64,000 bases of DNA. It comes from Chrysoperla carnea. Taxonomy: Eukaryota; Arthropoda; Insecta; Neuroptera; Chrysopidae. Position numbers and translations under genes: made by a program. The stretch covers positions 65,479,501 through 65,543,500 of the forward strand of contig NC_058341.1 of NCBI RefSeq assembly GCF_905475395.1, in the 5' to 3' direction. Within the stretch, counting starts at the first letter, position 1. Every line of letters starts with the position of its first letter. The notes beneath the pieces were generated by a model. It was given only the letters and a program-made list of their open reading frames with translations. It made no database searches and was not told the DNA's origin. Shown here one piece after another: positions 3,692-58,760 of the stretch.

Positions 3692-23534
<19,843 letters not shown>

Positions 23535-43799: not shown

Positions 43800-44540
43800 A
43801 AAACACGTCCAAAAAAATACGAAAAAACAAAAAATTAATTTTTTAATAATTGTTGACAAATTGCTTAAAATTTTTGGAAAATGCAAAAAGTAATTACACC
43901 AATGAATTCTATGAAAAAATACAAAAAAATGTTTTTTATTATTTGACGCGAAACAAAATATTTGCCGAGGCCGCAATGATATTGCTAGGAAGATTAATCT
44001 AAAATACTATATAGTCACAACTTAAATTGATTGACTTATTTGCCGATACAAATTCTACAGCACTTCTAGACATTAAGTATGACCCAAAATTAAGCATGAT
44101 TTTATTTCTAGTCGAGTCGGCGTTTTTCCAATTTTCCAGGGGGGGGGGTGTGGCAATGAAAAAGATGAAGTTTTTCGAAGTTTCCCGTAGGTTTCCGCAA
44201 TTTTGCGTCGAATGCCGAAAACCGCATCTTTCTAGCATGTCTAGAAATGCTGTAGGATTTTTATCGGTAAGTGAGTCAGTCAATTTTAATTGTGACTATA
44301 TAGTATTTTAGATTAATCTTTCTAGCAATATCGTTACGGCCTCGGCAAAAATTTGTTTCGCGTAAAATTATAAAACACATTTTTTTGTACTTTTTCCATA
44401 GAATTCAATGGTATAATAATTTTTCCAAAAATTTTTGTTAAAATGCTTTTTTCATCTTTTTTTTCCAAAACCATCTTTCTGATTTTTTAATAACTTCCTA
44501 CACTCCAATTTTTTCCAAATAATTTTTTGTTAAACACTAC
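43800..44540. mobile_element. foldback element immediately upstream of dapD
   Basis: Near-perfect arms of about 250 bp ('cctatatagtcacaa' and 'gattaatctaaaatactata' at left, complements at 44290-44330; 'gacgcgaaacaaaatatttg' against 'aaatttgtttcgcgt'). Symmetric ORFs on both strands here are artefacts of the palindrome. The element ends about 190 bp before the dapD start codon. Confidence 0.65.
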
Positions 44541-44732
44541 TATTTTCTCCAAATTATCGCTTAGAAAAATCGAACGTGTTAATTTTTTTTTAATACTGAA
44601 GTATTTTGCACCGTAGATACTGCACTCTTCCCCTATTTGTCTAATCAGTATATTCACTATCATTAAAATTAGTATTAATATGATATCCTAATTAAAAATT
44701 AATCTATGTTAGTTTAAATAAAACGAAATAAA

Positions 44733-45548
44733 ATGTCGCTACAATTAATTATCGAAGAAGCTTATGAAAATATAAAAAACATTAATTCGAATACCGTTAG
44801 TTTTGAAACTAAAAAGGCGGTAGAAGAAGTTATTAGTGCTTTAGATTGTGGACGTTTAAGAGCTGCTAATAAAAATAATGGGCAATGGCAAGTAAATGAT
44901 TGGATAAAAAAAGCAATATTACTGTCTTTTAGAATTAATGATAATCAATTAACAGGAGATAATGTTAATAATTATTTTGATAAGATTCCTACTAAATTCT
45001 GTGATTGGAAAGCAGAACAATTTCAATTAGCTTCTAATCGTGTTGTGCCCGGAGCTATTGTCAGGCATGGTTCATTTATTGGAAAAAATACTATATTATT
45101 GCCTTCTTTCATCAATATTGGTGCATATGTAGGTGAAGGGACTATGGTTGATACTTGGGCTACAGTTGGTTCTTGTGCTCAAATTGGTAAAAATGTTCAT
45201 TTATCTGGGGGTGTTGGTATTGGTGGTGTTCTAGAACCTTTACAAGCATCTCCAACGATTATTGAAGATAATTGTTTTATAGGAGCTCGCTCAGAAATTG
45301 TTGAAGGGGTAATTGTAGAAGAAAATAGTGTTATTTCTATGGGGGTTTATATTGGCCAATCAACTAAAATTTACGATAGGGAGAACGATACCATCAGTTA
45401 TGGACGAATACCAACTGGTTCAGTTGTTGTTTCTGGTAGTTTACCATCCAAGGATGGAAAATATAGCTTATATTGTGCGGTTATTGTGAAAAAGGTAGAT
45501 AATAAAACCCGTTCTAAAGTAAGCATTAATGAATTATTGAGAGACTGA
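44733..45548 (+). CDS. dapD: bacterial-type tetrahydrodipicolinate N-succinyltransferase
   Basis: Enzyme of the succinylase branch of diaminopimelate/lysine synthesis: succinyl-CoA + tetrahydrodipicolinate gives N-succinyl-2-amino-6-oxopimelate. The 271-aa frame is uninterrupted and close to the usual 274 aa. An N-terminal helical domain ([19 protein letters not shown]) is followed by a left-handed beta-helix of hexapeptide repeats (about residues 105-230), including [28 protein letters not shown] and [15 protein letters not shown], and a conserved tail ([14 protein letters not shown]...INELLRD). Asp140 and Glu188 align with the catalytic Asp141/Glu189 described for mycobacterial DapD. Overall wording is closest to enterobacterial DapD as I know it, so a gammaproteobacterial donor is inferred. 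Animals lack this pathway. No intron; A at -3 of the ATG; no convincing Shine-Dalgarno. Insect-type repeats lie on both sides, so either horizontal transfer or a chimeric contig. Confidence 0.95.
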
Positions 45549-45555
45549 GAGGTAT

Positions 45556-45561
45556 AAGGTG
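45556..45561 (+). promoter_or_regulatory. Shine-Dalgarno-like AAGGTG
   Basis: AAGGTG lies 6 nt before an ATG (45568), 8 nt after the dapD stop. In a bacterial genome this would be a good ribosome binding site for a second, translationally linked gene. Confidence 0.45.
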
Positions 45562-45567
45562 TTTAAT

Positions 45568-45627
45568 ATGGTTTATGGTGATATAGTTAGTGCTTTAAGT
45601 GATCGTCAAATTATCCGTTGTTTGTAA
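45568..45627 (+). pseudogene. 19-codon ORF behind dapD, possible bacterial operon scar
   Basis: ATG to TAA, starting 20 nt after the dapD stop and behind AAGGTG. The product begins MVYGDIVSALSD. I do not recognise it. Reading on in another frame stays open to about 45729 (KVDGDTTESITALFSHK...). It may be the 5' stub of a bacterial gene cut or frameshifted after transfer, or chance. Confidence 0.35.
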
Positions 45628-45682
45628 AGTTGATGGGGACACAACTGAATCGATTACAGCGCTGTTTTCTCATAAAATTTGC

Positions 45683-45688
45683 AATAAA
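45683..45688 (+). terminator. candidate poly(A) signal AATAAA behind dapD
   Basis: AATAAA 135 nt after the dapD stop, followed by T-rich sequence. If dapD is expressed by the host this is the nearest signal; AATAAA is frequent in such AT-rich DNA. Confidence 0.3.
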
Positions 45689-45710
45689 TCACTCGTTTTA
45701 TTTAAATTAA

Positions 45711-46416
45711 TAGTAAATGTCAAATAATAATTAATTAAATAATAATAATTAACTGTGGCATTAGAAATTATGAAAAATAAAAGACGAAATTGCATAAATA
45801 ATATTTCTTAAATGTAAATTAACATAATAACTTTTTTAAATTTGTAAGCAAATAATGTTAAATTTTCAATGTAAATCATATACAGGATATTTAGCTAAGT
45901 TAGCTACATACGGAAAACTTTTTTATTAAGTTTACAAAAAAAATTTATTCTTTATAAAAAGCTCTGCTTTCAAAAATAAAATATTAACATTTATAAAATA
46001 TTAACATACAATTTTTAACTAACATTATGACGTTACACGATCTTTTACGAACATTTTTTTTGTCGGGCGTTTTCGTTTCTTTTTTGAAGAGTTCTTTTAA
46101 AACTGTCTGTAGCTCTAAAATTATCATGAAAAAATAAAAAATGATAACAGTTTTGCAATAAAACTTATATATAATCTTTCCATTTTTGTTTTAAAAAAAG
46201 TAGAAAAAATTTTTTCGTTTCAAAATCCCAATTGGTATAGTAAATATCAAATAAAAATTAATTAAATAATAATAATTAATTAAACTTATGGCATTAGAAA
46301 TTATGAAAAATAAAAGACGAAATTGCATAAATAATAATTTTTAAATGTAAATTACAATAATAACTTTTATAAATTTGTAAGCAAATAGTATTAAATTTTC
46401 AATGTAAACCATATAT
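45711..46416. repeat. pair of 175-bp direct repeats downstream of dapD
   Basis: 45711-45882 and 46238-46416 are near-identical and in the same orientation ('ggcattagaaattatgaaaa', 'gacgaaattgcataaata', 'aaattttcaatgtaaa'). The 355-bp spacer begins with 'acaggatatttagctaagtt', the putative Tc1/mariner-like end also seen at 36136. This looks like a duplication accompanying an insertion. Confidence 0.7.
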
Positions 46417-46639
46417 GTACAAAAAATAGATTCATATATTCATAAATATTAATAAAATATAGTGTGTCATTCCCATGGAAACTCCTGAAATAAAAATTAT
46501 GTAGGTTGCGAATTATTAATGTTTATCTGATGTTAAATTTTTTTAAATAATAAATGTTATACAACGATAATTCTTAGTTAATTATTTTCTTAAGCTCTGA
46601 TAGTAGATGGTAATTTTTTTAATGAATTAAATATCTGTT

Positions 46640-47855
46640 TTTTATACCTTTTATATGTATGTATGTATGAAATATATACCAAGAAATACTAATTTTAGTC
46701 TGAAGTTTGTAACACTTAGGAATTGATGGATGATTGAATAGAATTGATGATACAGACAAAATTTTGGCACCATAAAAGCACCAAATTAGTTCATTTCCGT
46801 TTGTCCGCCCGTCTGTCCGTCCGCGATCACGACAACTCAAACACGAAAAAAGATATCAAGCTGAAATTTTTATAAGGTGCTCAGTACATAAAAAGCAAGT
46901 TTGAGTTTGTAAATGAGCAACATAGGTCAATTGGGTCTTTGGTCCGTAGGGCCCATTTGTAAATCGTTGGATATAAATAAAAGTTTAAATGTAAAAAATG
47001 TTCTTTATAAAAAGGTAACAACTTTTGTTTGCAATATTTTTTCGTAAACATCACTGATTACCCGTGAGTGCAAAAATTAGGACAAAACTTTTGTGTGCAT
47101 TTTCTCCAAAACTATAAAAGTTCGAGAGATGAAAAGACCTGGCACAAATTAGATGTAATCTGCATTTCGGTCAAACTTTTTCAAATTTTGTCAAATGATA
47201 GTTTAAGTCATTGTAAAGAAAAGTTCCCATGGTCACAAGTCATGAAAATGACAGGATTTCATGTTATAACTAAATTAAAAATGGAAAATGTACTTGTTTG
47301 TATAATAAATGCCTATGTGTGTATAGGCAAATACATATACAGATATGTATAACTACATGCATACGTGTATTTTTTAATGTAAGGGTGTTGTTTTTTAATT
47401 CTTTAATTTAGTGGATCAATAATATGAATTGTTAAGATCAATATTTTCAGGTACATATATCCGTACATGATTTTTGACAATTAAATTATAATAATTTTTT
47501 TTATATAAACAAGTACATTTTCCAATTTTAATTTAGCGATAACTTGAAATCCTGTCATTTTTATGATTTGTGACCATGTGAACTTTTATTCAGAATGACT
47601 TAAACTATCATTCCCCAAAAAGTTTGACCGAAATTCAGATTACATATAATTTGTGCGAGGTCTTTTGTAGGTACTTTTAACTATTGAGCCTTAGGAATAA
47701 AATATGGAAGAAAAGTTTTCTAGAAAATATTTTCGATAACTAGGTCAAATTTTTCTAATTTATTAAAAACAATACAAGCACCTATATTCAACATTGTCTT
47801 ACAGGGTATTTCAACAATTAGGTCAGTAAATTGTTAATTTTCACTTGGTTTTTGT
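46640..47855 (-). repeat. family B repeat split by a foldback insertion
   Basis: 46640-47105 holds the '...catgtat' end through 'cgtaaacatcactgattacc'. The other end ('tatttcaacaattaggtcag') resumes at 47803. The interval is taken by the foldback at 47125-47680. Confidence 0.6.
47125..47680. mobile_element. foldback element inside family B
   Basis: Left 'agacctggcacaaattagat' against right 'atataatttgtgcgaggtct'; also 'gaaaatgacaggatttcatg' against 'cttgaaatcctgtcattttt'. Arms about 190 bp, non-coding. Confidence 0.65.
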
Positions 47856-54870: not shown

Positions 54871-55476
54871 ATGGATTTAAATGAACAAAATAAAATCATG
54901 CTTGATGCTATTCTTAAGAGGTTTGATGAAAATGAAAAGAGATTAATGGAAGAAATAAATAGCTTAAAAGTGGCGAATGAAGGGTTAAGAAACAGGGTTG
55001 ATGTCATGGAAAAAACTGTTCAAAATCAAAAAGAAGTTATTTTGCAATTAGAGAAAAGGTTGAACTCTAATAATATAATCATTCATGGCGTTGATGAAAA
55101 CAAAGATGACACGGGCTTAGAGGATGCTTTAATTGATTTACTTAACAGTAAATTGGCTGTCAATATAAAAAAACATGATGTTCAGCAAGTATATAGGCTT
55201 GGTAACAATAAATACAACGCTCGGCCGATTAAAGTTTTGTTAAATAATCATAAAACAAAGCTAAGTATTATGAAAGAAAAGAAGAAGCTGGCTGGAACTC
55301 CTATATTTATAACCGATGATCTGCCCAAGGAACTAGGAATTAGAGAAGCAGACGAAAGAAGAAAAAAAAGAGAAGCTTACAGCAAGCGTGGAAGTAAACG
55401 ACCTGTTGCCCAATCTTCAAGCGAAATGGATGATACGGTTGACAAGATTACTCAAGATATAAAGCGAAAAAACTGA
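54871..55476 (+). CDS. LINE ORF1 protein (coiled coil plus RNA-binding)
   Basis: 201 aa from the ATG at 54871, the first methionine in an open frame. Residues about 8-70 form a strong heptad coiled coil (RFDENEKRLMEEINSLK..., VMEKTVQNQ). A short RRM-like region follows (NNIIIHGVDEN; PIKVLLNNH; ITDDLP) and then a basic tail. This is the layout of L1-like/insect LINE ORF1 nucleic-acid chaperones. It ends AAA-AAC-TGA at a perfect A-AAA-AAC heptamer (55467-55473), and ORF2 lies in the -1 frame. The frame is intact. Confidence 0.8.
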   Translation: MDLNEQNKIMLDAILKRFDENEKRLMEEINSLKVANEGLRNRVDVMEKTVQNQKEVILQLEKRLNSNNIIIHGVDENKDDTGLEDALIDLLNSKLAVNIKKHDVQQVYRLGNNKYNARPIKVLLNNHKTKLSIMKEKKKLAGTPIFITDDLPKELGIREADERRKKREAYSKRGSKRPVAQSSSEMDDTVDKITQDIKRKN

Positions 55477-58400
55477 GAATTACATTTTGGAATATAGAAG
55501 GCCTTAAGAAGAAATTTTCAAATGGAAAAGTTATGGAATATCTTAATAAATTTGATATTGTAGGGTTAATGGAAACATGGACTGCTTCAGATGAAATACC
55601 TTGTTTACTAGGCTATGAATGTATTAGTAAGGGTGGCGTGAGGGATACAAACAGAGGTAGATACCCTGGTGGTTTGGCTGTCTTCTATCGAAGTAGCATG
55701 AAAGGTTTGGTAAGTGAGGTTAAAAGTGGAATGAAAGAGATCGTGTGGCTATTAGTTGAGAATGAGGGGAATCAAATGTTAGTGGGTGTAGTTTACTTGC
55801 AGCCTATATACTCAAAATACTCTAACGACATGTTTTTCACAATTTTAAGAACGGAAATATGCGATCTGATACAGAGATATCCAAATGCTTCTATAATTTT
55901 GGGTGGGGATTTTAATGCTAGAATTGGGGTGGAGTTGGATCATATGGATTTTGAATGTGACTTACTAGTACCAAGGCATAGTATGGATGAATGTGTAAAT
56001 GCGTACGGGAAAAAATTTTTAAGTATGATTAAGGAGTGTGATTTTGTGGTTTTGAACGGAAGGGCATCGAGTGACAAATGTGGCGAATGGACGTATGTTT
56101 CGAATTTGGGTAAGAGTGTAATTGATTACGTATGCGTAACGAAGGACTTGTGGTATAATCATATTGACTTGAAAGTTGGCGAGATAGTTGAGTCTTCTCA
56201 TTTTCCTCTTGAAGTGACAACAAACTTTTTTAACACAATAGAAAAAGAAAATTTAAATGATGGTATCGTACTGACGAGATACAAGTGGGATTTAACAAAG
56301 GAATCGGATATTATAAATAGGATTAACAGTAAAGAATCTCACTTGTTTCTAATCGGTTTGAAACATCTGATTGCAAGTGATAAAATCAACGAAGCGACGG
56401 TGGTACTACAAGAATGGGTTGCATTTATTAGCAAAGACTTGGAAGTATGTAGGTATCGTAACAGTGCAGTTTCTTATGTCGACTGATACGATATCGAATG
56501 TAAAAATAAAAGGAAAGAGTTGAAAAATAAATTGAGGAAAATGAGGAGAAATAAAACTGACTTGACACTGAAGCAATATTTAGATTGCAAGTCTTCGTTT
56601 ACAGATCTGTGTGTGCGTAAAAAGGAAATGTATGAATCGGACTATGTGCAGAGAGTGAACGAGGCTGCGAATGAAAACAATTCTAAGCTATTATGGAAGA
56701 TACTTAGTTTTAAGAATAAATATGTTATGAGTGATGGAATAAGTTTGGATGAATGGCAGAATTATTATAAGCAATTGTATAGCCAAGACGATAAAAATGA
56801 GAATACAGTGGAAGAAGGAGTGAGGACAGATGCCCAGAATGATGACTTTGATCTGGCTTTTGATGATATGGATATACCTTCGGTTATAGTTACGGCAAGG
56901 GATAATAAAGCACCGGGGCGGGATGGAATTTTGAACCAAATTATAAAATTTTTATATAATAAATGTCCAGAATTCGGCCCGATATTAAATATATTATTCA
57001 ATGCTATGACTGTAAATCATGTATATCCAAGAATATGGTCCACGGGAGTCATCAGCAACCTATACAAAGGGAAGGGTGAGGTTAATGATCCCACTAACTA
57101 CAGGGGTTTAACGCTAATGCCAAATTTGAGCAAGCCATATACAAAGCTCTTATCTGATCGACTATGGAGGTGGTTTGATGAAAGCAATATCATTAACCAC
57201 ACACAGGCTGGATTCCGTAGGGGCTATGAAGTCATGGATAATGTCTTGGCCTTGAAAGCAATCATTGACAAATCACTAAGTATTAAGAGATCCAAGACAT
57301 ATCTATGCTTCATAGACTTCGAAAAAGCCTTTGATAAAGTAGACAGGCATTTATTGTGGCAAAAACTTTCATCCATCGGCTTACCATCAAACTTCATAAA
57401 TGTTTTTAAATCTATATACAAGTTTACATCTTGTTGCATTCGATCAGGTAATGGTGGTGTAAGCTCAAATTTTGGTACGCACAAAGGCTTAAGACAGGGT
57501 TGCCATTTGTCATCACTCCTTTTCCTACTGTACATTAATGATTTGTATGTGTGGATGGATAACGTAAGTACAACGTCTCCATGCATCAGCGGTGCAGAAA
57601 TAAAGGTATTATTTTATGCAGACGACGTTGTACTTACATCAAAAACAGTTGGTGGGATGCGCAGAAGCCTGGAAGCGCTAGAGAAATATTGTGAGTTGTG
57701 GAAGCTAAGTGTAAATGTGAAAAAAACGAAAATGATGATTGTAAGTAATGGGCGAAAGAGCAGTGCAAATGAGGTATGGAAATTTAAAGAACATGTGATA
57801 GAGAATGTGGGAAACTTCGAGTATCTGGGTGTGATATTATCACGGAATGGGAGTTGGAATGAGCATGTGGAACGAATGTGTGATAAAGCGCAAAGAGTAT
57901 TAATGAGTGTTAGGCGGTATGTGTATAGGTATGAGAATTTTCCCGTAAACGTGATTGTAAAAATGTGTAATGCCTTGGTACTACCAATCCTTACTTATGG
58001 CTGCGAAATTTGGGTGAATAATAGCGCCAAATATAAGGATCACTTTAAAAAGGTTAATGTTGTTATGCATAACTTTTTTAAAGAAATCTTATGTGTACCT
58101 AAATCCATACCTAATTCGGCAATTAATTTAGAGTTGGGAACGAAAAGTGTGGAATATCTTTGTATACAGAAAGCTATAAATTATGGTTACAGAGTACAAA
58201 CCAGCGACAAAAATCTGCAAATAAACTGTATGAATGAAGAATCAATGGGTAAGCTGGATGAATTATTGGATGAACGAGGGCTGAATGAGTTGCACGAATG
58301 TAATAAATTATTAACAAAAAAAATAATTAAACAACTTGCTCTTAGTGAGTACCTGAGTGATATCAGCGTAAAGGAATCCTTGCAAATATTCACTATGTTA

Positions 58401-58760
58401 CACCACTACGAGCAAGGAGCAAGGTATCTGAGTATAAGTGAGAGGAGTGAAAGGTATGTGATTGCAAGTTTTCGTATGTATGGGTTTAAATGGAACAGCA
58501 AGAAAGAAGAGGGTGTTAGAGTGTGTGCCATGTGTGACGCGGTTGAAAGTATAAAACACTTGATAGAAGATTGTCCTGGAACTGCAGGTGTAGAAAGAGA
58601 TGAGCTTATTCGCCTAAACATATACTCTGCCACAGATATTTTGAATGTGTCCGAACAGGCTAAAATAAAACCCGTGGTAGCCTACCTTAAACACATCTTA
58701 AAAAAAAGAGGAATCGTACATCAAATGAAGCCGTCTATGTTTCCATTTTTATTAGAATGA
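55473..58760 (+). pseudogene. LINE ORF2: AP-endonuclease plus reverse transcriptase (one nonsense codon)
   Basis: About 1,095 codons in one frame, interrupted only by TGA at 56484-56486. The endonuclease half begins LRITFWNIEGL and carries GGDFNARIG, SVIDYVCV and SSHFPLEV (the GDFN, S-IDY and S-H-P boxes). The reverse transcriptase half carries TNYRGLTL, QAGFRRGYEVMDNV, FIDFEKAFDKVDR, GLRQGC and FYADDVVLTS (catalytic YADD), then NFEYLGVIL and PILTYGCEIW. A C-terminal CAMCDAVESIKHLIEDC knuckle follows. The first ATG (55533) lies after the FWN box, so translation is expected to enter from ORF1 by -1 frameshifting or reinitiation. Clade not certain. Confidence 0.88.

Follow-up and report, generated by a model that had tools for sequence, protein, structure and literature searches.

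Larger insertions of bacterial DNA, of the Wolbachia type, are known from insect nuclear genomes, and transfers of genes for diaminopimelate (DAP) or lysine synthesis are known from sap-feeding Hemiptera besides Bemisia tabaci. In B. tabaci itself, the nucleus carries bacterial dapB, dapF and lysA acquired from different donors; dapB and dapF are intronless. Ten cryptic species have kept the catalytic sites, and the encoded proteins were found in bacteriocytes and restored E. coli strains that had lost the corresponding genes (PMC8659303). Where the excerpted text of that study mentions dapD, the gene belongs to the symbiont Portiera (PMC8659303), and the term diaminopimelate does not occur in the main text of a paper on 163 ant genomes (PMC13320244). 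The original prediction for the present locus had held that the known sap-feeder transfers do not include dapD, and no earlier insect case was found in the literature searched, a scope that leaves most subscription papers outside. Here we describe a dapD gene that, judging from sequence comparison, was probably transferred into the nucleus of an insect and kept there by selection.

The dapD frame and its place on scaffold C5

The DNA analysed, referred to throughout as the window, is a 64-kb stretch of Chrysoperla carnea NC_058341.1 (scaffold C5), positions 65479501-65543500 of the plus strand, and its features are collected in Table 1. The product of the dapD frame matches the DapD model TIGR00965 at 471.8 bits (cut-off 375.4), spanning residues 3-270 along the whole model (positions 2-269 of 271), and in Pfam it matches THDPS_N_2 (the THDPS N-terminal domain) together with hexapeptide repeat models. 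The agreement of all these models excludes chance similarity and bears out the predicted complete, intronless DapD. The predicted extent of the feature was too long, as the range 44733-45627 contains stops and its end lies beyond the dapD stop, at the point where another, short frame terminates.

Among solved structures, the best 10 matches are all DapD-type succinyltransferases. Residues 2-270 align at equal length to residues 3-271 of 1kgq, and this offset of one identifies D140 and E188, which are invariant in a 12-row DapD alignment, with D141 and E189 in 1kgq numbering. We take the latter two to be the catalytic acids of DapD; on that assumption about their role, both acids are present as had been claimed. 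The protein can thus be assigned to DapD by family membership, from which succinyltransferase activity is predicted.

Table 1. Positions of features within the 64-kb window
Feature	Positions	Strand	Remarks
Host adenosine kinase	3695..22766	-	at least 4 exons: ~22276-22766, 7386-7544, 5494-5760, 3695-3814
Host foldback	43867..44435		arms 43867-44073 / 44237-44435, ~85% complementary
Left dispersed host repeat	44438..44630		copies on C1-C6, 73-84% identity
Candidate 3' splice acceptor	44625..44648	+	pyrimidine-rich tract and CAG, 84 bases before ATG
Gap from left repeat to ATG	44631..44732		~100 bp; no Shine-Dalgarno-like motif by eye
dapD ORF	44733..45548	+	start ATG at 44733, stop codon ends at 45548; 271 aa plus stop, intronless, GC 33%, GC3 18%
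60 bp after the stop, outside host repeat	45549..45608	+	short frame 45568-45627 begins here
Right dispersed host repeat	45609..45882		right bound of foreign segment
Second local copy of 45710-45882	46237..46415		90% identity
Host repeats with more copies in window	46612..47135		68-83% identity in pieces

A protein search of the host assembly (559.5 Mb in 337 contigs, 21 of them listed, with C1-C6 at 39-140 Mb and C5 at 76.4 Mb) returned a single DapD match, C5:65524233-65525045, and no second dapD copy in the 559 Mb. When 44436-45709 was used in a DNA search of the assembly (40 of 461 candidates scored), copies of the left flank, on C1-C6, extended to ~44626-44630, and five copies of the right flank, on C1-C3, began at ~45609. 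Because the left host-repeat copies stop at ~44630 and the right ones start at ~45609, the foreign DNA can be delimited to ~44631-45608, about 1 kb, bounded on both sides by dispersed host repeats that leave ~100 bp upstream of the ORF and 60 bp downstream. The flank-copy alignment draws on 20 of the 39 places other than the dapD locus; in two left-flank copies, L157 and L164, a weak alignment continues to 44698 and 44744. The gene had been said to lie between foldback elements. This description fits the left side, where a foldback is followed by a dispersed repeat, but not the right, where the neighbouring element is a dispersed repeat. On that side there are also two direct copies of a 173-bp piece of dispersed host repeat, separated by 527-533 bp.

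A bacterial gene in a eukaryotic assembly always raises the concern that a symbiont fragment, or contamination, has been fused into a host contig. Here we regard such a chimera as very improbable, since host repeats on the same contig reach to ~100 and 60 bp from the ORF and there is no N nearby: the sequence contains no N base in the window or in the 10 kb past each end (84 kb in total). In addition, host genes are present on the same scaffold, the foreign part is just ~1 kb and dapD matches nowhere else in the assembly. The ORF is complete, flanked on either side by host repeats and placed far within a 76-Mb scaffold; the gene is very probably a physical part of the insect nuclear genome, in support of the original prediction that an intact dapD of bacterial origin is embedded in insect DNA.

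The short stretches between the ORF and the repeats carry few signals of their own. In comparisons with 80 and then 123 dapD loci (tblastx, blastn), the DNA leading up to the ATG and that following the stop gave nothing beyond chance, and the same was true of 44631-44732 against the 123 loci. Translated pieces of the downstream DNA matched no Pfam family and a single NCBIfam row, at E 0.043, far under the cut-off; the 60 bp after the stop may nevertheless be residual bacterial DNA. The candidate acceptor is 79% pyrimidine, and 19 sites on the plus strand of the 64 kb reach at least 0.78. The first AATAAA downstream of dapD, at 45683, lies inside the right host repeat. Together, the acceptor pattern and this AATAAA offer hints of host-type expression only.

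In the host sequence around dapD, reading frames carry BTB, THAP, endonuclease, reverse transcriptase and gag domains. A LINE-type element at 55443-58757 has long open frames, the first for an endonuclease and the next, of 757 aa, for a reverse transcriptase. Among named species, the joined adenosine kinase exons are most similar to those of beetles (Onthophagus 73%, Tribolium madens 72%, Popillia 71%), with other orders close behind (Bradysia 69%, Anabrus 68%, Athalia 67%); in a 36-row tree the host sequence falls outside the sampled Cucujiformia and firefly clades and otherwise has no firm place. The gene had been viewed in the setting of sap-feeders, and these nearest neighbours leave a sap-feeding hemipteran host unsupported. 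A protein from a 1263-base SRA contig (P0121) is 97% identical to the host adenosine kinase; as the host exons span 19 kb, the contig probably represents spliced mRNA from a closely related species.

Bacterial affinity and base composition

Among the best 120 of 8000 scored proteins, the organism names shown are Neisseriales, at 72-75% identity. In a scan of genome contigs, two Neisseriales loci and one Gallibacterium (Pasteurellaceae) locus top the matches listed at 72%, and the Enterobacterales loci among those matches reach 68-71%. Within the order of Chromobacterium, 242 of the 250 sampled genomes contain a dapD match, the best at 74%. A match was also found in 73 of the 82 genomes of a family that we take to be Neisseriaceae, since its members are interspersed with named Neisseria and Snodgrassella proteins in a 55-row tree; one of these matches is weak (G271), one is in pieces (G325) and the rest range from 69 to 75%. 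The fragmented matches, on G325:C12, comprise three pieces, one with an internal stop, and possibly represent a broken dapD.

The gene groups with bacteria in the tree. A 75-row tree, from which P0001, P0003, P0013 and many other listed proteins and loci were omitted for size, left the placement of the window gene open. The three named proteins are DapD sequences with an internal duplication, encoded on short contigs, and are probably artefacts of assembly or prediction. The 55-row tree comprises the window gene, P0002 (a closely similar protein from an SRA contig), 48 of the 122 located proteins, whose positions were obtained by tblastn, and 5 listed P proteins. Here the window gene and P0002 join 21 Neisseriaceae rows with support of 98/84, on a stem of 0.57 changes per column. 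In AU tests, forcing the pair to join the gammaproteobacteria costs 13.0 log-likelihood units (p-AU 0.17) and forcing it to join the Enterobacterales costs 21.8 (p-AU 0.098), so that neither placement is formally rejected. The gammaproteobacterial, and more narrowly enterobacterial, donor originally proposed is less well supported, being disfavoured both by the Neisseriales names at the top of the protein search and by the Neisseriaceae grouping. From these comparisons we infer that the donor was likely a betaproteobacterium related to Neisseriaceae.

Base composition sets dapD apart from host coding sequence. At fourfold sites its GC content is 0.19 (21/109), whereas that of the adenosine kinase exons is 0.41 (49/119; Fisher p 0.0005); the gap to local noncoding DNA, at 0.24-0.31, is smaller (p 0.026 against 0.29). 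FYMINK residues make up 0.32 of the window DapD, compared with 0.21-0.25 in 31 Neisseriaceae. Such a composition fits an AT-rich symbiont donor, and host drift could add to it. Six SSU matches were obtained in the assembly (5 of 2048 candidates scored). Of the three examined, one is alphaproteobacterial-like and two are host 18S, and no Neisseriaceae symbiont was seen.

Constraint on the coding sequence

The relationship with P0002 permits an examination of how the sequence has changed. This protein, from a 935-base contig, is identical in length to the window DapD and 92% identical in sequence. Column variability was derived from 122 located and 7 listed bacterial DapD proteins. The 23 differences between the window and P0002 occupy columns with a mean entropy of 1.28, against 0.76 overall (permutation p 0.003). 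Bacterial conservation reaches 97% or more in 116 of the 271 columns, and these contain 3 of the 23 differences (hypergeometric p 0.0016). At those three columns it is the window that has the common bacterial residue. Because the differences sit mostly at sites that vary among bacteria, purifying selection is suggested. Restricted to the five changes that can be attributed clearly to the window, the conserved-column test gives p 0.06, and P0002 may itself be a bacterial gene, in which case some of the signal could have arisen before the transfer. We regard selection on the host copy as likely, if short of proven.

These considerations bear directly on another explanation, in which symbiont DNA with dapD entered the nucleus recently and has not been under selection, the gene being functionless and its ORF intact simply for want of time. 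We accord this possibility real weight, though well short of an even chance. In its favour, P0002 could be the donor lineage's own gene, the window-specific changes give p 0.06, the fourfold GC content is still under host values, 60 bp of possible bacterial DNA persists past the stop and the genome contains other bacterial DNA with broken genes. Against such an origin, just a gene-sized piece remains, tightly framed by host repeats, its ORF is complete at both ends and the changes relative to P0002 avoid conserved columns.

Pathway context and comparison with known systems

Four other DAP genes, dapA, dapB, dapE and dapF, were sought in the host assembly, as the original prediction had proposed. 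Searched exon by exon, an approach by which absence is not absolute, dapB and dapF gave no match, and dapE gave a weak match alone (47 bits over 66 positions, under the cut-off). The one match above the cut-off for dapA, C1:139156230-139157000, has an internal stop and adjoins an ilvE-like frame. The surrounding DNA looks Rickettsia-like in its gene order and palindromic repeats, and it is suggested to be a decaying nuclear insert, or several. That it holds a broken dapA indicates that bacterial DNA does decay in this host genome.

About 225 kb from this dapA (L176), in the same 140-Mb host scaffold, lies a 1325-bp 16S-type gene, C1:139382497-139383821 (L172). In a plasmid collection, the alphaproteobacterial records among the 30 of 571 listed match it at 84-85%, and one record outside those 30 matches at 90-95%; in a phage collection, one record outside the 10 listed matches at 99% or more. 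By eye, transposase-like repeats surround the 16S gene, frames at 139.30 and 139.40 Mb have a bacterial look, and one of BIR type at 139.35 Mb resembles host sequence.

On this evidence, and among the genes searched, the host appears to lack a pathway of its own around DapD; nor was a symbiont devoid of DapD seen. A lone DapD in an insect cell has no substrate, which counts against a retained gene. Since no other intact DAP gene was found among those searched, the enzyme would make sense only alongside the pathway of a symbiont. The same search results could be accommodated if the gene were retained but repurposed, being expressed and selected for a role outside DAP synthesis such as the transfer from succinyl-CoA to another amine. 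We consider this quite unlikely, as the residues taken to be catalytic are kept and the window departs from the bacterial residue at 7 of the 116 conserved columns, all in common with P0002, with five of the departures being hydrophobic exchanges and R14I and G101S being the two that are not.

We favour, with modest confidence, a retained nuclear dapD derived from a Neisseriaceae-related donor and acting only together with a symbiont pathway. According to this model, a single dapD would have moved from an AT-rich relative of Neisseriaceae to the insect nucleus and been kept as a working coding sequence. Its product would form the DapD trimer and succinylate tetrahydrodipicolinate with succinyl-CoA, and a symbiont would supply the substrate and then take up the product or the enzyme, DapD thereby completing the symbiont's pathway to meso-diaminopimelate for its wall or to lysine. 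Expression of dapD and complementation of a symbiont are hypothetical. In a more specific version, which we put forward tentatively and think rather doubtful, the nucleus encodes a DapD that the symbiont has lost and delivers the enzyme, so that the symbiont's wall or lysine supply depends on the host gene; the host-encoded DapD may stem from a former Neisseriaceae symbiont. With a retained dapD, the known transfers of DAP and lysine genes would come to include a further insect order, a new pathway step and a different donor group, and it could be tested directly whether a host controls the cell wall or lysine supply of its symbiont.

The encoded protein resembles the bacterial DapD of Snodgrassella and Neisseria in length, domains and presumed catalytic acids, at 72-75% identity, but it differs in its location on an insect chromosome, its AT-biased composition and the long stem (0.57) that it has in common with P0002. 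With the Wolbachia-type insertions and the Rickettsia-like DNA on C1 it shares the presence of bacterial DNA in an insect chromosome; those insertions span several genes, broken ones included, whereas here there is one intact gene. The closest parallel is the B. tabaci system as described in the excerpted account, which likewise features intronless bacterial DAP genes in an insect nucleus (PMC8659303). In contrast to that system, the C. carnea locus would contribute a different enzyme, DapD, from a likely Neisseriaceae donor, with no intact partner gene found among those searched.
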